A stretch of DNA of 64,000 nt, from NCBI GenBank assembly GCA_947365245.1, contig CANAWG010000015.1, forward strand, positions 16,708-80,707. Direction: 5' to 3'. This document shows positions 13,337 to 58,572 of the stretch, piece by piece (positions within the stretch are counted from its first letter, which is position 1; each line of letters begins with the position of its first letter). Made by a program: the position numbers and the translations under genes. The notes under the pieces were generated by a model. That model was given only the letters and a program-made list of their open reading frames with translations. It had not been told where the DNA came from and made no database searches. The DNA is from an uncultured Oscillibacter sp. GTDB lineage: Bacteria > Bacillota > Clostridia > Oscillospirales > Oscillospiraceae.

Positions 13337-13500
13337 TCCATATAACAGGAATATACGTCCATAGCAAGCGGACATTTGTTAGAAAACGCAATTGACAACC
13401 CTGGAAACATGTGGTAAGGTAATACCAAATTGAAGAACGGCATATAAATTCCCAGGGAGGCAGTCCCCGAGGGGGCCTGGCGGAACCGGGAACCACTGTG

Positions 13501-13581
13501 GCTCTGGAGAAGCCCGGCCGGCCCGGGTACCGAAGGTGTAAGGCGGAAAACCGCCGAATCTCTCAGGTAAAAGGACAGAGC
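13501..13581 (+). promoter_or_regulatory. Glycine riboswitch aptamer
   Basis: GGCTCTGGAGAAGCC...TACCGAAGGTGTAAG...GAATCTCTCAGGTAAAAGGACAGAGC; P1 GCTCTG/CAGAGC closes. Confidence 0.92.
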
Positions 13582-13624
13582 GGACATTTCCGCCGGCGGC
13601 TGTGTGTACCGGCGGAGATTTCCC

Positions 13625-17054: not shown

Positions 17055-17175
17055 GCGGCAGCGGGATGCGGGACACACACTGCGGTTTCCCTTTCGTCCG
17101 GAAAGCAACTCCCCGTCTTCCCGGCACTGCGGACGGCCCTCGCCGCCCGTTGACACGCGTGTCCCTACTCTGCCT
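17055..17175 (-). promoter_or_regulatory. Tetrahydrofolate (THF) riboswitch
   Basis: Minus strand GGCAGAGTAGGGACACGCGTGTCAACGG...GCAGTGCCGGGAAGACGGGGAGTTGC...GACGAAAGGGAAACCGCAGTGTGTGTCCCGCATCCCGCTGCC; TATAAT just upstream. Confidence 0.85.
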
Positions 17176-35635: not shown

Positions 35636-35890
35636 GAAAAACGCCCTGAGCCTTTCGGCTCAGGGCGAACAGATCTGTCCGCGGTACCACCTGAATTCGC
35701 GCTTTTCAAAAGCGCGCCCTCACGGGCGCTCTCACGCCCTCTCCCGGTAACGGGGGACACCGCCGCGGCCTACTGCTTTTTCAGCCGCGATGCTCCGGGA
35801 CGACTTCTCCGGCGGCCTCCCGGGAGCTTGCACCATCCGCTCCCTCTCTGCGCGTCCGCCTGCCGGGTACTGCTTCCCATCCTCGCAGTT
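35636..35890 (-). promoter_or_regulatory. T-box leader, probably valine-responsive
   Basis: Minus strand GATGGGAAGCAGTACCCGG...GCAGAGAGGGAGC..ATGGTGCAAGC...GAAGTCGTCC...AATTCAGGTGGTACCGCG then terminator CGCCCTGAGCCGAAAGGCTCAGGGCGTTTTT; TTGACA-17-TATACT upstream. Confidence 0.88.
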
Positions 35891-35954
35891 TCACACTTGC
35901 GCCAGTATAATATATCCGGCCCGAAATGTCAAGTGCTCCATCTCCCGCCGCCGC

Positions 35955-45940: not shown

Positions 45941-46984
45941 ATGCGGATGCGGAAGAAAAAGAACCTGATCCCCCGGATGGAGCGGTGCGGAGACCGCCTG
46001 ATCCAAAACCCCTACGACCGCTGGGGCCGCTGGCGGGAGCTGATGCCCCGGGCCCGGGAGCTGCGGCTGGAGCTGGGCTGCGGCAAGGGCCGCTTCACCG
46101 CCGGCACGGCGGCGGCAGAGCGGGACGTCCTCTTCATCGCCGTGGAGCGGGTGCCGGACGCCATGGTGGTGGCCATGGAGCGGTGCGCGGCCGCGGGGCT
46201 CGACAACGTCTACTTCATCGACGCCAACGCCGACCAGCTGCCTTTCTTCTTCGCCCCCGGCGAGGCGGACCGGATCTACATCAACTTCTGCGACCCCTGG
46301 CCCAGCGGCCGCCACGCCAAGCGCCGCCTGACCCACGGGAGCTTTTTGAAGCTCTACCGCCAGGTGCTGAGGGAGGGCGGCGAGATCCACTTCAAAACCG
46401 ACAACCAGGGCCTCTTTGACTTCTCCGTGGAGGAGATTCCCCAGTTCGGCTTCACCCTGTCGGAGGTCACCCGAGACCTCCACGAACACGGCCCCGTGGG
46501 GGTCATGACGGACTACGAGGCCAAATTCCATGAGCTGGGCCAGCCCATCTGCCGCCTGGTGGGCACCATGGTCCCCTGGGAGGAGACGTTCCCCACCGAC
46601 ATCCGGCGATTGCGGGAGCGGTGGCTGGACGCTTTCACCGAGGGCGTCCCCGAGGCGGACCTGGGCAGACACGTGCTGGCGGACGGGAACTACCTCTGGC
46701 ACGCCTTCTCCTGGAAACTGGTGCCCTGCCTGGAGGGAGAGGCCGCCCAAAGGGCCCTGGCGGAGACGCCGGACAGCGGCCTCTATTTATTTTATAATGA
46801 GTATCCCCCCCAGGGGGCGTCCCGGGTGCGGCCCATCTCCAAGGCGGAGGCCCTGTCCATGGAGCCGCCGGAGACGATGGCCGGGGCGGACTGGTATCTG
46901 GTGGACCGGGACTTCACCTGGACCTACGCCCACACCCACGAGGCCCAGTGCGGCCCCTACTTCTGCCGCCCGGCGGAGAGCTGA
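45941..46984 (+). CDS. trmB: tRNA (guanine-N7-)-methyltransferase with C-terminal DUF4275-like extension
   Basis: LELGCGKGRFT, YINFCDPWPSGRHAKRRLTH; about 130-aa C-terminal tail NYLWHAFSWKLVPCLEGEAAQRA...DRDFTWTYAHTHEAQCGPYF. Confidence 0.88.
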   Translation: MRMRKKKNLIPRMERCGDRLIQNPYDRWGRWRELMPRARELRLELGCGKGRFTAGTAAAERDVLFIAVERVPDAMVVAMERCAAAGLDNVYFIDANADQLPFFFAPGEADRIYINFCDPWPSGRHAKRRLTHGSFLKLYRQVLREGGEIHFKTDNQGLFDFSVEEIPQFGFTLSEVTRDLHEHGPVGVMTDYEAKFHELGQPICRLVGTMVPWEETFPTDIRRLRERWLDAFTEGVPEADLGRHVLADGNYLWHAFSWKLVPCLEGEAAQRALAETPDSGLYLFYNEYPPQGASRVRPISKAEALSMEPPETMAGADWYLVDRDFTWTYAHTHEAQCGPYFCRPAES

Positions 46985-47001
46985 CAATTTCAAAAGCCCA
47001 T

Positions 47002-47032
47002 CCAGGGCCGCGCGGAAGACCGCGCGGCCTTT
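47002..47032 (+). terminator. Terminator after trmB
   Basis: GGGCCGCGCGGAAGACCGCGCGGCCTTT. Confidence 0.65.
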
Positions 47033-47084
47033 CGCGTCTCCAAAAGCTGTAACAATTTTGATGATTTTGTTACCGCTTTGTGGT

Positions 47085-47130
47085 TGACATTTGTCTACCT
47101 TCCTGTTATGGTATAGGTAGACAGTTGTAT
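47085..47130 (+). promoter_or_regulatory. Promoter with BlaI-type operator
   Basis: TTGACATTTGTCTACCTTCCTGTTATGGTATAGGTAGACAGTTG: -35/-10 with dyad TGTCTACC...GGTAGACA. Confidence 0.65.
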
Positions 47131-47149
47131 ACCAAAGGAGGAGCGCACT

Positions 47150-47527
47150 ATGAAAATCAACCTCTCGGACAGCGAGTGGAAGCTGATGAACTGCCTGTGG
47201 AGCCGATCTCCCGGCACCATCACGGAGCTGACGGCGGCACTGAAGGCGGACACCGGCTGGAGCAAGAACACGGTCATCACCATGCTCTCCCGGCTGGAGG
47301 CCAAGGGGGCCGTCCGCCACGAGGAGGGGGCGCGGGCCAAGCACTACTTCCCCGCGGTCAGCCGGCGGGACGCCGCCCGGGCGGAGACGGAGAGCTTTTT
47401 GGGCAAGGTCTACGGCGGCAGCCTGGGGCTGATGATGAGCGCCATGGTGGAGAGCCGCCAGCTGACGGAGGCGGACATTGCGGAGCTGTCGGCGATTCTG
47501 GAGCAGGCGGGAGGGGAGACGACATGA
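47150..47527 (+). CDS. BlaI/MecI/CopY-family repressor
   Basis: 125 aa, LSDSEWKLMNCLWSRSPGTITELTAALKADTGWSKNTVITMLSRLEAKGAV. Confidence 0.94.
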   Translation: MKINLSDSEWKLMNCLWSRSPGTITELTAALKADTGWSKNTVITMLSRLEAKGAVRHEEGARAKHYFPAVSRRDAARAETESFLGKVYGGSLGLMMSAMVESRQLTEADIAELSAILEQAGGETT

Positions 47528-48291
47528 GAAAGACTTTTCCCATCTTATTGGCCTTTCTGCTGGCCGGGCTGTGCCTGACAGCCGGCTGCGGGCAGCGGAA
47601 CACGGAAGCCGCCCCGCCCTCTCCTGCGGAGCCGGCGCCGGAGGCCCCCGCCGTCTCCATCCTCCCCGACGCCCCCGCCCCTCCGGAGGAGGAGCCGGAC
47701 GGCCCGGATCAGCCGGTCCTGGAGGCCGGTCCCGCGGACGGCCTCCTCACCGAGACGGAGCTGGACTTTTTCAATGAGGTCTACTTCAACAACGAATCCG
47801 TTCCGCTGCGCAATCAGTTTTTGTCCTCCACCTACGAGTCCCCGGCGGACATCGACCTCTTCTCCCTCTTCTACAACGGCACCGGGGCCTGGGAGGACGT
47901 GAGCGAGGCGGAGCGGGAGACGGTGATCCGGGAGGGATACAACGGCGGCAGCCCGGACACGGACCTGACGAAATGCTCCGCCGGAGAGATGGACGCCGCC
48001 CTGCAAAGAAGCATGGAGCTGACTCTGGCGGAGACCAATCAGGTGGGCCTGGACAGCTTCGTGTACCTGGCGGAGTACGACGCCTATTACCATTTCCACG
48101 GGGACACCAACGTCCGGCCCCATGTGGACATCGCCGCCGGGGAGCGGGTCGGCGGCCTGGTCCATCTCTATTACGAGGACACCTTTTTTGCCGACGGCTG
48201 GAAGTGCGTCACGCTGCGGCCGGGAGAGGACGACGGATACAAATTCGTCTCCAACCTCCCCTGTGACACGGCGGACGTCCCCGTCCGCTGA
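47524..48291 (+). CDS. Predicted lipoprotein, homologous to part of the downstream M56 protein
   Basis: Lipobox LLAGLCLTAGCGQ; LTETELDFFNEVYF...ADIDLFSLFYNG...AEYDAYYHFHGDTN. Confidence 0.8.
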   Translation: MRKTFPILLAFLLAGLCLTAGCGQRNTEAAPPSPAEPAPEAPAVSILPDAPAPPEEEPDGPDQPVLEAGPADGLLTETELDFFNEVYFNNESVPLRNQFLSSTYESPADIDLFSLFYNGTGAWEDVSEAERETVIREGYNGGSPDTDLTKCSAGEMDAALQRSMELTLAETNQVGLDSFVYLAEYDAYYHFHGDTNVRPHVDIAAGERVGGLVHLYYEDTFFADGWKCVTLRPGEDDGYKFVSNLPCDTADVPVR

Positions 48292-48311
48292 CCGGAAAGG
48301 AGGACGCGATC

Positions 48312-51300
48312 ATGAAAGAAATTCTGTTGACCTCTTCCGTGCTCATCGCGGCGCTGCTGCTTCTGCGCCGGGTATTTCGCAATTCCATCTCCCGGCGGCT
48401 CCAGTACGCCCTGTGGGCCCTGGTGGCGCTGCGGCTGCTGGTGCCCGCCAATCTGCCGGCCCTGGAGCACAACGTGCTGACGGCGGCGGACCCGGTGGTG
48501 CGGGACATCGAGGCGCTCTACATCACCCCCCGCCAGATCGCCTACGATACGCCGGACGGGTCCAAGATCTACGGCCCGCCGAACACCCCGGCGGTGACGG
48601 TGGGCCCCGCCACGCCGGACAACAAGCTCACAGTTTCCGTGGAGGACGGCTTCCACACCCCCGTGGAGGCCACTACCCTCTACCAGTGGCAGATCGTCCT
48701 GGAGGACCTGCTGCGCCCCGTCTGGTACGCCGGCATGGCGGTTATGGCGGTCTGGTTCCTCCTCTCCAACCTCCTCTTCTGGCAAAAGCTCCGCAGGCGC
48801 CGGACGCCCTACCCGGTGGAAAACTGCGATCTCCGGGTGTACTTGGTGGAGGAGGGCCTCCCCTCCCCCTGCCTCTTCGGGCTGTCTAACCCCGCCATCT
48901 ATCTGACCCCCGCCGCCGTCTCCTCGCCGGAAGCCCTGCGCCACGTGCTGGCCCACGAGGAGACCCACGCCCGTCACTTAGACCCCCTGTGGTCCCTCCT
49001 GCGGGCGGTGTGTTTGACGGTGTACTGGTTCGACCCGCTGGTGTGGGCCGCCGCCGTGGTCAGCCGCAGCGACTGCGAGCTGGCCTGCGACGAGGGGGCC
49101 ATCCTGCGGCTGGGGGAGGCGGAGCGCATCCCCTACGGCAAGACCCTCCTCTCCCTGATCCCCGTGGGGCGGGGCCCCGTCAATCCCCTGCTGTCCGCCA
49201 CCACCATGACGGCGGGAAAGCGGCAGCTCAGGGACCGGGTCACCCGCATCGCCCAGAACCGCCGCACTGTTGGAATCGCCCTCTTTGCGGTGATCGCCCT
49301 GTCGGCGGCGGTGTGCGCCGCCACCTTCACCGGGGCGGCCGCCCCCCAGCCCCGGGAGGACATGGACAGCGCCGCTCCCAAGGCCGACGGCCCCCTCACC
49401 CGTGCGGAGATGCTGTACTTCAACGAGGAGTTTTTCAGCAGTGAGGACGGGTTCAACCTCCGGGGGCAGTTCCTCACCTGCCTCTATGAGCGGCCGGAGG
49501 ACATCGACCTCTTCTCCCTCTTCTACAACGGCGTCGGGTCGCCGGACGTCACAGACGAGGCGGAGCGGCGGGCCATCGCCGGCGGCGAGGACCCGGGCGT
49601 GGACCTGACGAAGTTCACCACGGCGGAGGCGGACGCCGCCCTGCTGGAGCACACCGGGCTGACCCTGGAGGAGACGAACCGGGTGGACCTGGACACCTTC
49701 CGCTATTTTCCGCAGTACGACGCCTACTACCTGTTCCACGGCGACACCAACGCCGTCCCCATTCCCGACTTCTTCGCCGGGGAGCGGGAGGGCGATACGA
49801 TCCGCCTCTATTACGAGGAGTTCCGGTTCGGCGGGTACGGCGTCTTCTGCCTGACCCTGGAGGAGCGGGAGGACGGCGGCTGGTGGTTCCGCTCCCACAC
49901 CCTCTCGGAGATGCCCGCCATCCCCCCGGTCTACCCGGCGGGAGAGCCCTGGATGACCGTTTCCCTGAAAGACCTGGAGCCCTACCAGCCCCAGGCGATG
50001 GAGGTGGAGCGCCGGGGGCTGGAGGACATCCGGTCGCGGTGGGACATTAAGGTCCTGGAGGGCTATGAGCAAACTCTTCCCGCCTATACGGAAACGCTTG
50101 CCTACAAGTCGGCCATCATCGTCTATCAGGCCGTGGACGGCGCCATCCGCGCCGCCGTGGAGGACCCGGATGGATTGGACTGCTTCTTCACATTTCCGGA
50201 GGGGGTCAGCTTCGACTACGCCAAGGAGCACATCGCCGATTTCAACGATCTTCTGGGCCATTCCGGCGTATCCGTCTCCTACAACGCCCAAAAGGACGGC
50301 GAATACTTCACCACGTTCAATGACTATTACACCTTTGGCGGCGACGGCAGGCCGTACCTGCTGGCCCGGGCCTGCGGCGATTCCGTCATCAAGGCGGACC
50401 TGGACGGCGACGGGCAGATGGAGCTGGCCTCCGCCGGCATCCACGACGTCCAGATCTTTTTCCAGCGGGACGGGCGGCTGTACGAGGCCGACGTCCTCCC
50501 CCTGCTGGCGGAGCAGTGGACGGAGCCCGTCTCTTTCTATCCCGCCTACTGGGACAAATACGGGCGGTCTCTGACCCTCAACGCCGAGGTCCCCTTCCCG
50601 GACGCCTCTCTTCCGGAGGAGTTCGGCGGCGGCCAGGCCACCGGCACCGCCGTGCGGCAGCTCTTCTTCGACGGGGAGGCCCTGCGGCTCTACCGGGATG
50701 ATGACCGGCCCGTGACGGACCACGTGATGGAGGGAGGCGTTCAGGCCCCGGAGGAGGTGCTGGAGGCCGCCAGGCAGATGGTCCACGACCGCTACGAGTA
50801 CGCCCGGACCCACACCGGCGTCACCGGCGGGGACGGGGAGATGCTCGGCACCCCGGCGGAGTACGACGACTGGCGGCTGGAGGTCCTGGGCGGCCCCTGG
50901 ACCGAGCTTCTGGGGAACAACCAGCGCATCGAGATCTGGAACATCAACTACGAGTTCCACACCACCACGCCGAAGCGGGTCATTCTGGCGGGGGGAGCCT
51001 ACCTGACGGAGGACGCGTGGCACTGCAATACCTACCCGGGGTGCACCTATCTCTACTTCCTCTTCCCGGCGGACGGCCCCCGGCGCTACCTCTACACCGC
51101 CATGGAGAACGACTGCGCCCCCGGCACGGAGATGTTCCGCACCGACATGGCCTACGCCCTGGACGAGATGGGCGCGGTGCCTCTGACGGATCTGACGGCC
51201 GACACGCTGATGGACATGATCCAGACGGGCGAGGTCCGCTTTCTCAACTATCTGGCGGAGCGGGAGGACGGCGAGGCCGTCATTGACCGTCTGCGGTTCT

Positions 51301-52658
51301 CTCTCACCGCCAGGTGGGGCACGCCTCTGGACGGACTGACGGAGCTGCACTTCCGGTATACCGGCAGCGCCGGCGAATGGAACCACAAAGAGATGTACCA
51401 ATACTACGTTGAGTACTTCGACACTTACCTCCGTCCGAACCTCACCGAGGGCGGCGCGGCGCTGTGGGAGCGGCTGACGGACCAGGCGGCCGCCCCGGCG
51501 GACCGGCTCCTCCCCACCCTGGAGGACATCCGGGCCCTGGCCCCGGCGGAGGCGGCGGAGGCGGTCTATCAGCGGGGCAAGGCCAACCTGACCGCGTACC
51601 TGCGGGAGCCCGCCCTGTACGACGGGTGGCGGGTCTCGAATCTCACCCGGGAGACGGGCTTTTCCACCTACGGCCTGAACCTTGCCGTCTACTCCGCGTG
51701 GTTTGAGCTCCACCCCTCCCAGCCGGACAAGGTGGTTCTGGCCGGGGGCATGGACTTCACGGAGGACGGCTGGGTCAAGGGGCTGATGTCCGCCTCCCCC
51801 TACCTGGTGTTCCTGGAGGAGAATGGGCATTACACCCTGCTGGAGAGCGACATCCCCTATGACACCTCCGCCGATTCCCCGGCTTTCCAGGCGGAGATCG
51901 CCTGGGCGCTGCTGGAAAACCAGCGTCTCCGCCCCTCCCAGATTGACGGGGAGACGCTGCTGACCATGCTGGGCCCCCGCTCCCTGAACCTCTGGGGGAC
52001 TTATCCGGAGGAGGAGCAGGAGGCGGTTCTCACGGCCCTGGACGCCTTCCACAACCAGGGGCCCCAGGAGCTGCAGATGGATCTGCGGGACAGGATCCAG
52101 ACCACCGTCTGGACCCAGCGGGACCTGGACGAGCGCGGCGCCGCCCTCTTCCAAAAGCTCCTGAAACGCACCGGCATCCAGGCCTACGGCATCACCAACA
52201 CCGCCACCAACCACCTGGGAAGCGCCATCCATAACGCCCTCCACTACTGGCGGGAGAACGCCTCCGCCCACGAATACGACTTCCACGAGGAGGCCTACTA
52301 CCTGCTGGACACCCAGCGGGGCGGCAGCAGCTGCACGGTGCACCTGCTGGTGTCCTGGGGGCACTATGAACTGACGGAGGACGGCTATGAGCTGGCCGCC
52401 GGCGGCGACTGGAACGCCATGGCCGTCTCTTTCTCCTATGTCAACGACCGCTATCAGGCCACGGAGATCTGGGAGCCCCACGGCGGCGGCCTCTACGAGC
52501 CGGAGGTCCGGGCCTGCTTCCCGGAGGAGTCGGCGGAGATCGTCTTCGCCCCCCGGGACAGCGAGAGATATCAGGCGATTCACCAGGCGCTGGACGACTC
52601 TCTCAAGATGTACGCGGAGGCCGGGTATGAGGCATACCTGGAAAGGCAGGCGGGATAA
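48312..52658 (+). CDS. Giant M56/BlaR1-family membrane metallopeptidase with large non-transpeptidase ectodomain (1448 aa)
   Basis: N-terminal TM region plus HEETH zinc motif (VLAHEETHARHLDPLWS), DCELACDEGA; long C-terminal extracytoplasmic region. Confidence 0.9.
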   Translation: MKEILLTSSVLIAALLLLRRVFRNSISRRLQYALWALVALRLLVPANLPALEHNVLTAADPVVRDIEALYITPRQIAYDTPDGSKIYGPPNTPAVTVGPATPDNKLTVSVEDGFHTPVEATTLYQWQIVLEDLLRPVWYAGMAVMAVWFLLSNLLFWQKLRRRRTPYPVENCDLRVYLVEEGLPSPCLFGLSNPAIYLTPAAVSSPEALRHVLAHEETHARHLDPLWSLLRAVCLTVYWFDPLVWAAAVVSRSDCELACDEGAILRLGEAERIPYGKTLLSLIPVGRGPVNPLLSATTMTAGKRQLRDRVTRIAQNRRTVGIALFAVIALSAAVCAATFTGAAAPQPREDMDSAAPKADGPLTRAEMLYFNEEFFSSEDGFNLRGQFLTCLYERPEDIDLFSLFYNGVGSPDVTDEAERRAIAGGEDPGVDLTKFTTAEADAALLEHTGLTLEETNRVDLDTFRYFPQYDAYYLFHGDTNAVPIPDFFAGEREGDTIRLYYEEFRFGGYGVFCLTLEEREDGGWWFRSHTLSEMPAIPPVYPAGEPWMTVSLKDLEPYQPQAMEVERRGLEDIRSRWDIKVLEGYEQTLPAYTETLAYKSAIIVYQAVDGAIRAAVEDPDGLDCFFTFPEGVSFDYAKEHIADFNDLLGHSGVSVSYNAQKDGEYFTTFNDYYTFGGDGRPYLLARACGDSVIKADLDGDGQMELASAGIHDVQIFFQRDGRLYEADVLPLLAEQWTEPVSFYPAYWDKYGRSLTLNAEVPFPDASLPEEFGGGQATGTAVRQLFFDGEALRLYRDDDRPVTDHVMEGGVQAPEEVLEAARQMVHDRYEYARTHTGVTGGDGEMLGTPAEYDDWRLEVLGGPWTELLGNNQRIEIWNINYEFHTTTPKRVILAGGAYLTEDAWHCNTYPGCTYLYFLFPADGPRRYLYTAMENDCAPGTEMFRTDMAYALDEMGAVPLTDLTADTLMDMIQTGEVRFLNYLAEREDGEAVIDRLRFSLTARWGTPLDGLTELHFRYTGSAGEWNHKEMYQYYVEYFDTYLRPNLTEGGAALWERLTDQAAAPADRLLPTLEDIRALAPAEAAEAVYQRGKANLTAYLREPALYDGWRVSNLTRETGFSTYGLNLAVYSAWFELHPSQPDKVVLAGGMDFTEDGWVKGLMSASPYLVFLEENGHYTLLESDIPYDTSADSPAFQAEIAWALLENQRLRPSQIDGETLLTMLGPRSLNLWGTYPEEEQEAVLTALDAFHNQGPQELQMDLRDRIQTTVWTQRDLDERGAALFQKLLKRTGIQAYGITNTATNHLGSAIHNALHYWRENASAHEYDFHEEAYYLLDTQRGGSSCTVHLLVSWGHYELTEDGYELAAGGDWNAMAVSFSYVNDRYQATEIWEPHGGGLYEPEVRACFPEESAEIVFAPRDSERYQAIHQALDDSLKMYAEAGYEAYLERQAG

Positions 52659-52737
52659 GTAAGAGAAAGAGCTTCCCTTTTCCCCCTGTTTTGGGTATAC
52701 TGTATCCACGGACACCCAGAACAGGAGGAACTTACCA

Positions 52738-53151
52738 ATGAAAAATCTCATTCTGCTGGCCCTGGTCATCTGCCTGGGCGTGATCGTCATCAGGCTCTAC
52801 ACCGCCCGGTCCGCCCCCAACGCCCCGTCCCCCGCCGGCAAGCGCTATCTGACGCTGACGGCGGAGGAGGCCAAGGCCCGCCTGGACGAGGGCGAGGACG
52901 TCGTGCTGCTGGACGTGCGCACCCAGGAGGAGTATGACGCCGGCCACATCCCCGGGGCCGTGTGCCTGCCCAATGAGGACATCACACCGGACAGCCCCCT
53001 CCCCTACGACAAGGAGGCGGAGATCCTGGTCTACTGCTGCTCCGGCCGCCGCAGCGCCCTGGCCGCGGAGAAGCTGGCGGACATGGGCTACGAGAACGTG
53101 GCGGACTTCGGCGGCATTCTCGACTGGCCCTACGGGACAACCGCGGATTGA
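52738..53151 (+). CDS. Membrane-anchored rhodanese-like domain protein
   Basis: N-terminal TM then LDVRTQEEYDAGHIPGAVCLPNED...ILVYCCSGRRSALAAEKLADMGYENV. Confidence 0.93.
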   Translation: MKNLILLALVICLGVIVIRLYTARSAPNAPSPAGKRYLTLTAEEAKARLDEGEDVVLLDVRTQEEYDAGHIPGAVCLPNEDITPDSPLPYDKEAEILVYCCSGRRSALAAEKLADMGYENVADFGGILDWPYGTTAD

Positions 53152-53156
53152 TGCAG

Positions 53157-53192
53157 AAAACCGGAGGCATGGGAATCCATGCCTCCGGTTTC
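53157..53192. terminator. Bidirectional terminator
   Basis: AAAACCGGAGGCATGGGAATCCATGCCTCCGGTTTCT. Confidence 0.8.
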
Positions 53193-53204
53193 TCCGTAAG
53201 ACGC

Positions 53205-53666
53205 TCAGAGCATCCCCTGCTGGCGCAGCAGCGCCTCCAGCAGCTCCACCGATGTGACGATCATGATGTCGCAGTGGGCGGTAACGCCCAGCCGCCGGGC
53301 CGCCTCGGTTTTCTCCGAAACGCCCGGGCGGGCTCTCAGCAGCTCTCCGCAGCGGGTGTATCCGAACACGTCGAAAAAGCGCTGCCGGAACTCCTTGGCC
53401 AGGCCGTAAATCCTCCGCTTGGCCTCCAAGTCCCCCTCCTCCGTGAAAGGAAACAGGGCACCCAGCACCAGCAGCGCCCCGCTGACGGCCCCGCAGGCCT
53501 CCTCATGACTGCCGCCGAAACCCCCGCCGAAGCTCCCCGCGGCGGAAAACAGCCGCTCTTTCGTCCAGCCCGTCAGGTCCTCAAAGGCGGCGGCCACCGC
53601 CTGGGCGCAGTTGTACCCCTTTTTGTGATAGTCATAAGCCAGCGCGCAGCGATCCATCGCTTCCAT
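53205..53666 (-). CDS. C_GCAxxG_C_C family protein
   Basis: YNCAQAVAAAF...GGGFGGSHEEACGAVSGALLVLG. Confidence 0.85.
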   Translation of the reverse strand: MEAMDRCALAYDYHKKGYNCAQAVAAAFEDLTGWTKERLFSAAGSFGGGFGGSHEEACGAVSGALLVLGALFPFTEEGDLEAKRRIYGLAKEFRQRFFDVFGYTRCGELLRARPGVSEKTEAARRLGVTAHCDIMIVTSVELLEALLRQQGML

Positions 53667-55336: not shown

Positions 55337-56281
55337 ATGGCAGTTTTCAGAGTGGAGCGAAATACGGGATATACTGTTATGAGCAACCACCACTTGCGCA
55401 ACAAGGAACTCACCTTAAAGGCAAAGGGCTTGTTGTCGCAAATGCTGTCCTTGCCGGAGGATTGGGATTATACCCTTGCGGGCTTATCCCATATCAACCG
55501 GGAAAAGATCGACGCAATCCGCGAAGCGGTAAAAGAACTCGAAAAAGCCGGATATATCGTGCGCAGCCGGGAGCGCGACGAGAAAGGACGCTTGCGGGGT
55601 GCGGATTATGTCATATATGAGCAGCCGCAGCCGCGAGAGCCGGAAGCAGCTACCAGCGGCGAACAGCCGCCTATATTGGATTACCCTACATTGGAAAATC
55701 CAACATTGGATAATCCAACGTTGGAAAAACCTACGCAGGAAAAGCCTACGTTGGAAAATCCAACGCAATTAAATAAAGATATATCAAGTAAAGAACAATC
55801 AATTACTGATTTATCAAGTACCCATTCCATTCCTTTCCATTCCCTAAATCCCTTGCCCTTTGCACAGGGCGAAGCGGCTACGCCGCCGGAAAGGAAAAGA
55901 ACGGAAGCGAAAAGCAATAACGCAGTAGAGATTTACAGGGAAATTATCAAGGACAATATCGAATACGATCATCTCATTCAAAACTGCAAAATTGACAAAG
56001 ACCGTTTGGACGAGATAGTTGACCTTATGCTGGAAACCGTCTGCACAGCACGAAAGACAATCCGTATTGCCGGGGACGACTACCCAGCCGAACTTGTCAA
56101 ATCCAAGTTTATGAAGCTGAACAGCAGCCATATTGAGTTTATTTTGGACTGCATGAGGGAGAACACAACCAAGGTGCGCAACATCAAGCAGTATCTAAAA
56201 GCGGTGCTGTTCAACGCGCCGAGTACCATTGACAGCTACTATACCGCCCTTGTCAATCACGACTTATACGGCGGCGAATGA
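55337..56281 (+). CDS. Replication initiator-like protein (RepA_N-like/DUF6017-type HTH)
   Basis: MAVFRVERNTGYTVMSNHHLRNKELTLKAKGLLSQMLSLPEDWDYTLAGLSHINREKIDAIREAVKELEKAGYIVR... Confidence 0.8.
   Translation: MAVFRVERNTGYTVMSNHHLRNKELTLKAKGLLSQMLSLPEDWDYTLAGLSHINREKIDAIREAVKELEKAGYIVRSRERDEKGRLRGADYVIYEQPQPREPEAATSGEQPPILDYPTLENPTLDNPTLEKPTQEKPTLENPTQLNKDISSKEQSITDLSSTHSIPFHSLNPLPFAQGEAATPPERKRTEAKSNNAVEIYREIIKDNIEYDHLIQNCKIDKDRLDEIVDLMLETVCTARKTIRIAGDDYPAELVKSKFMKLNSSHIEFILDCMRENTTKVRNIKQYLKAVLFNAPSTIDSYYTALVNHDLYGGE
55676..55770 (+). repeat. Tandem 15-nt palindromic repeats inside the Rep-like gene
   Basis: Units such as TTGGAAAATCCAACA / TTGGATAATCCAACG; encode (P-T-L-E-N)n-like repeats. 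Confidence 0.8.
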
Positions 56282-56317
56282 GCATAGCCGCACTTTACCG
56301 GGAAAGGAGTTGATACC

Positions 56318-56791
56318 TTGCAGGAGGAAGTAACCCAAAAAACGATTGCCCTATACGTCAAAGTGGGGAAAGGCGCGGCGCGGCTTACCGAACAAGCGTT
56401 GCAGAAAGCAATCCAAAAGTTTTTGGAGCAGAAAAGCAAGCCCGCACACGGGAAACAGACCATGCGGCAGCTTATGAAGCAGAACGCGGGTGTTTCCAAC
56501 ATCGAGATCACCGACGCGAATATCAAAGCCTTTGAGAGTACGGCGAAGAAATACAACATAGATTTTTCGCTGAAAAAGGTTAAGGGCGAACAGACCCGTT
56601 ACCTTGTGTTTTTCAAAGGCCGGGACGCGGACGTTATGACCGCAGCCTTTCAAGAGTTTTCCGCAAAGAAGCTGAACCGGGATAAAAAGCCCTCTATCCG
56701 CAAAGCCCTTGCCGCTGCAAAGGACAAGGCGAAGCAGCTTAACGCCGCCCGCGACAAGGTAAAGAAAATGGACAGGGGGCGCGAGATATGA
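56318..56791 (+). CDS. PcfB-family (DUF3801) conjugation protein
   Basis: 157 aa, MQEEVTQKTIALYVKVGKGAARLTEQALQKAIQKFLEQK..., directly upstream of virD4. Confidence 0.85.
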   Translation: MQEEVTQKTIALYVKVGKGAARLTEQALQKAIQKFLEQKSKPAHGKQTMRQLMKQNAGVSNIEITDANIKAFESTAKKYNIDFSLKKVKGEQTRYLVFFKGRDADVMTAAFQEFSAKKLNRDKKPSIRKALAAAKDKAKQLNAARDKVKKMDRGREI

Positions 56792-58572
56792 AGCAGTTAA
56801 ACTACAAAAAGCTGATACTTCCCAATATCCCCTATGTGTTCTTTGTCTATCTCTTTGATAAGGTGGGACAGGCGGTGCGGCTTGCCCCCGGCGCGGATAT
56901 TTCCGAAAAGATACTCAATATCACACAGGGATTTTCCGAAGCGTTTTCAAATGCCTTGCCGAGCGTTCACCCGTTGGATTTGCTTATCGGCATTGTCGGC
57001 GCGGTGGTTATCCGTCTGATTGTCTATGTCAAAGGGAAAAACGCAAAGAAATACCGCAAGGGCGCAGAATACGGCAGCGCACGTTGGGGCAACGCCGAAG
57101 ATATAAAGCCCTACATCGACCCGGATTTTCAGAACAACATCATTTTGACGCAGACCGAACGCCTTACCATGAACAGCCGCCCGAAGCAGCCGAAATATGC
57201 GAGAAATAAAAACGTCGTGGTGATCGGCGGCAGCGGCAGCGGCAAGACAAGGTTTTTCGTAAAGCCTAATTTAATGCAGCTTCATTCTTCCTACGTCTTG
57301 ACCGACCCAAAAGGCACCGTCCTAATCGAGTGCGGAAAGCTGCTGCAACGGGCAGGCTACCGCATTAAGGTACTGAACACGATAAACTTTCGGAAAAGTA
57401 TGCACTATAACCCCTTTGTCTATATCCGCAGCGAAAAGGACGTGTTAAAGGTTGTCAATACCCTTATTGTCAATACCAAAGGCGAGGGAGAAAAAAGCGC
57501 GGAAGATTTTTGGGTGAAAGCCGAGAGATTATTATATTGCGCGTTGATCGGCTACATTTGGTATGAAGCCCCCGCCGAGGAAATGAACTTTACAACGCTG
57601 CTTGAACTTATCAATGCCAGCGAAGCACGCGAGGACGACGAGGAATACCAAAGCCCCGTTGATCTGCTCTTTGCCGATTTGGAAGAACGCAGCCCCGACC
57701 ATTTCGCGGTGAAGCAATATAAAAAATACAAATTGGCAGCGGGCAAAACGGCAAAGTCAATCCTTATTTCTTGTGGGGCAAGGCTCGCTCCTTTCGATAT
57801 TGAAGAACTCCGGGAACTCATGTCCTATGATGAATTGGAACTTGACACATTGGGCGACCGGAAAACCGCGCTTTTCCTCATAATGAGCGATACCGACGAC
57901 ACCTTTAATTTTGTTATCGCTATTTTGCAATCACAGCTTTTTAATTTACTTTGTGATAAAGCGGACGACGAATACAACGGCAAATTGCCTGTTCATGTCC
58001 GTTTTTTACTCGATGAATTTGCCAACATCGGGCAGATACCCCGCTTTGATAAGCTGATTGCGACCATACGCAGTAGGGAAATGTCCGCTTCTATCATTCT
58101 GCAATCGCAGAGCCAGCTAAAAGCCATTTACAGGGACGCGGCAGAAATCATACTTGATAATGCCGACAGCACCTTGTTTTTGGGAGGACGTGGGAAAAAT
58201 GCAAAGGATATTTCGGATAACTTGGGACGGGAAACAATCGACAGTTTCAATACTTCCGAAAATCGCGGCACGCAGGTTTCTCATGGACTTACTTATCAAA
58301 AATTAGGAAAGGAGTTGATGACACAGGACGAAATAGCAGTTATGGACGGTGGGAAATGTATTTTGCAGCTACGCGGTGTGCGTCCCTTTTTAAGCGACAA
58401 ATACGATATAACAAAACACCCGAACTACAAATACCTTTCCGACTTCGACAAGAAAAACGCTTTTGACGTGGAACGGTATATGTCTACCCGTCCGGCAATC
58501 GTAAAGCCCGATGAAGCCTTCGACATATACGAAATAGATTTGTCCGACGAGGACGCAGCCGCCGAGGAATAA
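56788..58572 (+). CDS. VirD4/TraG-type conjugative coupling protein
   Basis: 594 aa, VVIGGSGSGKTRFFVKPNLMQ Walker A, FLLDEFANIGQIPRFDKLIATIRSREMSASIILQSQSQLKA. Confidence 0.95.
   Translation: MKQLNYKKLILPNIPYVFFVYLFDKVGQAVRLAPGADISEKILNITQGFSEAFSNALPSVHPLDLLIGIVGAVVIRLIVYVKGKNAKKYRKGAEYGSARWGNAEDIKPYIDPDFQNNIILTQTERLTMNSRPKQPKYARNKNVVVIGGSGSGKTRFFVKPNLMQLHSSYVLTDPKGTVLIECGKLLQRAGYRIKVLNTINFRKSMHYNPFVYIRSEKDVLKVVNTLIVNTKGEGEKSAEDFWVKAERLLYCALIGYIWYEAPAEEMNFTTLLELINASEAREDDEEYQSPVDLLFADLEERSPDHFAVKQYKKYKLAAGKTAKSILISCGARLAPFDIEELRELMSYDELELDTLGDRKTALFLIMSDTDDTFNFVIAILQSQLFNLLCDKADDEYNGKLPVHVRFLLDEFANIGQIPRFDKLIATIRSREMSASIILQSQSQLKAIYRDAAEIILDNADSTLFLGGRGKNAKDISDNLGRETIDSFNTSENRGTQVSHGLTYQKLGKELMTQDEIAVMDGGKCILQLRGVRPFLSDKYDITKHPNYKYLSDFDKKNAFDVERYMSTRPAIVKPDEAFDIYEIDLSDEDAAAEE

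Follow-up and report, generated by a model that had tools for sequence, protein, structure and literature searches.

The repressor BlaI and its partner BlaR1 are known above all for switching on antibiotic resistance, and genes of this kind are annotated accordingly. We analysed a stretch of 64,000 nucleotides (hereafter the window) from an uncultured Oscillibacter sp. (contig CANAWG010000015.1, positions 16,708 to 80,707 of the forward strand) that contains an operon for a BlaI-type repressor, a lipoprotein and an M56 metallopeptidase. With the BlaR1/BlaI and MecR1/MecI systems of staphylococci and Bacillus licheniformis this operon shares the BlaI-type repressor, the M56 catalytic residues, the position of the autocleavage loop and the dyads over the promoter. 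Unlike those systems, it lacks a penicillin-binding sensor and a beta-lactamase or penicillin-binding protein (PBP) gene as target, carries a modular ectodomain of about 1100 residues together with an extra lipoprotein made of one ectodomain module (E1), and has methionine instead of phenylalanine at both predicted P1′ positions. A BlaI/BlaR1-family pair serving a signal other than beta-lactams is known from the cyanobacterial PetRP, a copper-responsive BlaI/M56 pair that controls the plastocyanin and cytochrome c6 genes (PMC7896320), whereas here the operator is confined to the operon itself and the M56 protein has a large, exchangeable ectodomain. In Clostridium thermocellum, one study describes BlaI regulons that are very small and autoregulatory, with paired sites and the half-site GTCTAT, which resembles GTCTACC of the window; the authors read them as beta-lactam responses (PMC8457756). 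The same BlaI, protease and module string occur in the BlaI-M56-E1-E2-E3 operons of Oscillibacter, Flavonifractor, Pseudoflavonifractor and Dysosmobacter (loci L107-L129), but these have no lipoprotein between BlaI and M56, and several have two E1 modules inside M56. We read the operon in the window as a self-contained proteolytic derepression switch with a non-penicillin sensor and an exchangeable ectodomain cassette, and put the probability of this reading at roughly 0.6.

The three open reading frames lie head to tail where an earlier note on this DNA had placed them, and the lipoprotein ATG overlaps the BlaI stop codon (ATGA); they form one operon behind a dyad-covered promoter. Coordinates, the Pfam matches PF03965 and PF05569 and the lipobox agree with the note's row of repressor, lipoprotein and 1448-residue M56 protein, and its statements that BlaI has its own dyad operator, that neither a beta-lactamase nor a PBP gene lies next to it and that the M56 protein carries HEETH were likewise borne out. 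The size of the M56 protein, which it called giant, is not unusual, as M56 frames reach about 1700 residues in Oscillospiraceae. The features are, in window positions:

47082..47099, + strand: operator dyad 1, GGTTGACATTTGTCTACC, overlapping the -35 box
47084..47112, + strand: promoter TTGACA-17-TATGGT, the sole sigma-70-like promoter found in 46900-53300
47116..47133, + strand: operator dyad 2, GGTAGACAGTTGTATACC, shortly after the -10 box
47150..47527, + strand: BlaI-family repressor, 125 residues (PF03965, E 7.2e-31)
47441-47446, + strand: predicted BlaI scissile bond Ala98-Met99 (SA|MVES), by alignment
47524..48291, + strand: lipoprotein, 255 residues, lipobox LTAGC (Cys22), mature part an E1 module; no Pfam family, assigned by homology to M56
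48312..52658, + strand: M56 metallopeptidase with modular ectodomain, 1448 residues (PF05569, E 6.1e-41, residues 4-312)
48954..48968, + strand: HEETH zinc motif, residues 215-219, by motif and alignment
49206..49208, + strand: Met299, aligned with the P1′ Phe284 of the BlaR1 autocleavage loop
49257..49346, + strand: last transmembrane helix, residues 316-345, with Cys335
49392..49904, + strand: module E1, homologous to the lipoprotein
49944..50678, + strand: module E2, all-beta, propeller-like, with a DLDGDG loop (FG-GAP_3, E 0.0037, below the cut-off; model pLDDT 83, mostly propeller matches)
50688..51170, + strand: module E3
51477..51920, + strand: E3′, second copy of E3
52200..52616, + strand: module E5, tentatively NTF2-like, a helix plus four long strands

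BlaI has the Penicillinase_R winged-helix domain and the dyad operators over its own promoter that are expected of the BlaI/MecI repressors. Both dyads are perfect and 18 bp long, and the same pair precedes BlaI in the sister species and in relatives that belong to other genera; more distant BlaI genes, including paralogues of the own genome, have different upstream sequences, often with paired dyads too. We searched the own 2.82-Mb assembly for further operators with the pattern GGTWGACANNTGTMTACC, using the reversed pattern as control. Without mismatches only the two dyads of the operon were found, and with up to three mismatches there were 16 strand-matches compared to 45 for the control. 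A wider regulon addressed through this operator was rejected: the remaining matches examined sit inside genes (e.g. that of EF-Tu) or have three mismatches and look like chance, and no plastocyanin, cytochrome c6 or wall gene was among them. The best beta-lactamase-like gene of the genome, a class-A-like one (C1:111436), has no such operator, and closely paired matches in other genera again lie at BlaI-M56 promoters. Because the operator is perfect nowhere else in the genome, the circuit seems, by this pattern, to control only its own sensor parts.

The protease domain has kept the features of its family, with HExxH, the third zinc ligand and the supporting Asp, Tyr and Arg in place. In 32 M56 proteins H215, E216, H219, D224, E256, D260 and Y275 are invariant, as are P186, G190, W239, P242 and C259, and R309 is nearly so. 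These residues correspond to those of the BlaR1 active site, for which a cryogenic electron microscopy paper discusses His201, His205, Asp210, Asp246, Tyr261 and Arg294 as zinc-site or catalytic (PMC9834060), and a profile built from these M56 proteins matches the solved BlaR1 with E 3.6e-19. The autocleavage loops align as LSATT|M in the window and LSHS|F in BlaR1. Phe at P1′ is almost invariant in BlaI proteins cleaved by BlaR1 (PMC9834060). The window repressor has Met99 there, so that a large hydrophobic residue is kept; in paired systems the position holds M, L, I or F and is hydrophobic in all aligned pairs. From these alignments we infer that the M56 protease cuts BlaI near Ala98-Met99.

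Behind residue 340 the M56 protein has no K[ST]G motif and a single S..K. The Pfam scan found no transpeptidase domain in it, whereas the same scan detected one at E 5.5e-41 in the true BlaR1 of a Eubacterium record (L135), which served as positive control. The structure prediction that the earlier note had suggested gave, for residues 351-1043, a mean pLDDT (predicted local distance difference test) of 83 and a pTM (predicted template modelling score) of 0.80. Beta-propellers make up most of its best matches in the PDB; the TM-scores (template modelling scores) are low because the query is multi-domain, and a sub-threshold FG-GAP match at residues 696-733 agrees with the propeller matches. 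No PBP or class D fold was among the 50 structure matches listed for the ectodomain. A degenerate PBP domain was thus rejected by Pfam, motifs, fold search and the L135 control, and the note's claim that some 1100 other extracytoplasmic residues replace the penicillin-binding domain stands. Because both defining features are absent, i.e., a penicillin-binding domain (SxxK/KTG) and a beta-lactamase or PBP gene under the same operator, the operon is, as judged from its sequence, not a BlaR1/MecR1 beta-lactam sensor. No relative was recognised for modules E1 and E3: no single homologue stood out with confidence in the structure libraries, and PDB profile searches with E1 and with E1-E3 returned nothing significant. 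For E5 the NTF2-like assignment is tentative, with no match below E 0.001. We found no study of these ectodomains or of the satellite lipoprotein in the open-access literature.

The lipoprotein is itself part of this module set, a homology that had gone unseen in the earlier note. It aligns with M56 residues 317-538 at 42% identity (E 4e-46), by which it represents the membrane-proximal module E1 in free form. Its signal LCLTAGC with Cys22 (LCLTSGC in the sister locus L229) has the lipobox of signal peptidase II substrates. In the sister species (G218) the gene order BlaI-lipoprotein-M56-rhodanese is identical and the lipoprotein is 78% identical with a dN/dS of 0.39 (NG86) or 0.19 (YN00), and therefore under constraint; among the matches listed for 86 genomes of the genus, this species alone has a close orthologue. 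The BlaI and M56 genes of most relatives overlap or adjoin without a lipoprotein in between, and some M56 proteins carry two E1 modules. With one E1 moved to a gene of its own, the string E1-E1-E2-E3-E3-E5 of L110 (Dysosmobacter) would equal that of the window. We considered a recent duplication of the window's own E1; in the E1 tree the lipoprotein falls among M56-borne copies on a branch that does not resolve.

Free E1 lipoproteins are also present in other BlaI-M56 operons, behind M56 in the Lachnospiraceae loci L130-L132 and in L087, and in L047 an E3 lipoprotein lies between BlaI and an M56 protein devoid of ectodomain. Because free sensor modules recur in such operons, the free module probably takes part in the same pathway. 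The lipoprotein had been proposed as an output or accessory; as a detached E1 copy, it is likelier to be a co-receptor, ligand buffer or feedback part than an unrelated effector. The loci L047 (6541-9299) and L087 (2485-5815) are split systems, with a minimal M56 lacking the ectodomain and separate transmembrane or lipobox proteins bearing E3 or E1. The N-terminal cytosolic tails of these proteins (SPFTTAFSRTARE..., STQLRTG...) resemble the autocleavage-loop region of M56 and could be substrates in trans. Another free E1 protein is encoded on a human faecal scaffold labelled 'unverified bacteriophage' (MT836356.1, L198; 7201-7893), with no BlaI or M56 there. A cysteine is also common at the last transmembrane helix of the sensors themselves: 49 of 59 M56 proteins from the fetched loci have one in its outer half, and a lipobox pattern occurs there in 34 of the 59 compared to 6.8 expected by shuffling, although the sequences are related and these counts not independent. 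The window M56 has Cys335 without the strict lipobox motif. Lipidation or signal peptidase II cleavage of M56 sensors at this cysteine is possible on such patterns.

The repressor and protease on the one side and the ectodomain on the other appear to have different histories. Between the window and L229, identity is 93% for BlaI, 87% for the protease domain, 78% for the lipoprotein and 76% for the rhodanese, but 48% for E1, 31% for E2 and 27% for E3; dS (synonymous divergence) rises from 0.23 in the protease to 0.49-0.87 in E1-E3 (0.87 in E2, 0.83 in E3). A third species (L231) is farther from the window in the protease, yet close in E2 and E3. For the pairs window-L229, window-L231 and L229-L231, identities are 87, 78 and 81% in the protease, 31, 64 and 32% in E2, and 27, 78 and 32% in E3, while E1 is divergent in all three pairs. 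The L229 ectodomain is closest to that of L127 (41%). Because the relationships are discordant and dS jumps just after the last transmembrane helix, the comparison indicates that the ectodomain was swapped by recombination in the L229 lineage, with a breakpoint just behind that helix. Gene-wide positive selection on M56 was considered for its overall dN/dS of about 0.9; the dS jump at the boundary and the discordant relationships fit recombination better.

Operons of this kind are common in Oscillospiraceae, and M56 proteins without a PBP domain are the rule there. We followed up the suggested survey with two domain surveys of 41 Oscillospiraceae genomes, in which 25 genomes had about 85 M56 frames (counted by eye), and none of these overlapped a transpeptidase match among the matches listed, which do not include the weakest ones. 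In the own genome, a paralogous BlaI-M56 pair (L009, C1 near 145000) has an ectodomain ending in Peptidase_M23 (PF01551, E 4.5e-31), so this M56 may be a protease sensor fused to a peptidoglycan hydrolase. The Eubacterium record L135 (3028-8302) holds BlaI, a canonical BlaR1 with a transpeptidase domain and then an M56-E1-E2 protein.

A rhodanese gene follows the operon, preceded by a dyad of its own:

52680..52730, + strand: conserved dyad TTCCTCCTGTTTCGGGTATACTG...CCGAAACAGGAGGAA with TATACT and the rhodanese Shine-Dalgarno, not a BlaI operator
52738..53151, + strand: membrane-anchored rhodanese, 137 residues (PF00581, E 1.8e-19), a co-travelling neighbour

The dyad shows compensatory change in three columns and an RNA fold z of -4.3, and is the sole perfect match in the genome. 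With this conserved dyad in front, and with the TATACT box and Shine-Dalgarno that it contains, the rhodanese is better explained as a neighbour under separate control that travels with the operon than as the output of the switch. Elsewhere in the window, a glycine riboswitch (13494-13588), a THF (tetrahydrofolate) riboswitch (17057-17174) and a T-box leader (35658-35892) score above Rfam thresholds. Genes resembling a replication initiator and VirD4 by eye (55337-58572) suggest that an integrated conjugative element begins behind the rhodanese region.

In the mechanism that we propose, BlaI would bind the two dyads over the promoter and repress its own operon. An extracellular or envelope ligand, of a class and in a direction of sensing that we infer, would be met by the outer part of M56 (E1, E2, E3, E3′ and E5), possibly aided by the E1 lipoprotein; envelope sensing is plausible from this layout. 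The signal would cross via the last transmembrane helix, upon which the cytoplasmic zinc protease would cut BlaI near the predicted bond, and derepression would yield more sensor and more lipoprotein. The latter would most likely be a detached module that captures the ligand or competes for it, as co-receptor or feedback decoy. Over evolution, the repressor-protease chassis would be kept and the sensor cassette replaced by recombination. Several points weigh against this mechanism. A circuit confined to its own sensor operon has no evident physiological output; further targets could exist at operator variants that the search pattern does not cover, or in the 5% that the assembly lacks. From pair to pair, the P1′ residue of BlaI does not strictly follow that of the M56 loop. 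Only the window species and one sister species are known to have the lipoprotein, which is therefore not essential to the family.

Among the alternatives, an indirect sensing of cell-wall damage (muropeptides or other wall fragments) within an envelope-stress network deserves most attention, although we hold it to be considerably less probable than the proposed switch. It is a serious alternative because of the M23-ending paralogue of the own genome and the M56-E1-E2 gene behind a canonical BlaR1 in L135, and in B. licheniformis a peptidoglycan fragment is reported to trigger beta-lactam resistance (PMC3305447); yet no wall-binding domain was recognised in E1-E5 and no wall gene carries the operator. 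We regard it as unlikely that the ectodomain serves as receptor or decoy and is under antagonistic pressure from phage, bacteriocin, or host or diet glycan, with the exchange reflecting an arms race or niche switch. The swap behind the fourth transmembrane helix, the propeller-like E2 and the divergence of E1 even where E3 is 78% identical would suit it, but ordinary homologous recombination among related loci yields the same pattern, and no phage-defence or bacteriocin gene was seen to be linked with the system.

The rhodanese had been named earlier as a possible output, which would make the system a sulfur or redox sensor. In favour of this, the gene follows the operon in eight loci (the window, L044, L107, L110, L116, L125, L128 and L229), among them several of Oscillibacter/Dysosmobacter and that of the sister species, even where upstream flanks differ, so that its travelling with the operon in this subclade stands. 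Its role as output is weakened: no BlaI operator precedes it, its dyad and -10-like box are its own, in read-through RNA the Shine-Dalgarno would be masked by the dyad, and most other genera that have the system were not found to carry the gene beside the operon, which leaves this explanation quite improbable. A beta-lactam sensor after all, whether by a degenerate penicillin-binding domain or by responding to beta-lactams directly, is the least credible and highly improbable. Protease and repressor do belong to the BlaR1/BlaI superfamily, and the L135 record has a canonical BlaR1 directly before its M56-E1-E2 gene, but domain scan, motifs, fold search, the survey of family M56 frames and the operator-free beta-lactamase-like gene all speak against it.

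The earlier proposal that the BlaI/M56 logic serves another ligand thus gains from the non-penicillin-binding sensor and the conserved protease and operator, but the system is not new in principle, because PetRP is already a non-beta-lactam BlaI/M56 pair, and such sensors are the rule in this family. What appears new is the modular, recombining set of ectodomains and the satellite lipoprotein. More tentatively, and with less than even odds, clostridial BlaI-M56 operons may be a general receptor platform whose sensor cassettes are swapped by recombination and borne either on the protease or on free lipoproteins, many of the sensors possibly being lipidated at the cysteine of the last transmembrane helix. 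Judging from the natural sensor swap, chimeric receptors might be functional. Oscillospiraceae, a gut bacterial family, carry many BlaI/M56 copies without a penicillin sensor, and a 'BlaR1' annotation in gut metagenomes should not be read as beta-lactam resistance. A penicillin-alarm circuit appears to have been adapted here to sense something else, and if E1-E5 are receptors, these bacteria would hold a large and unexplored repertoire of sensors leading from surface to gene in one step.

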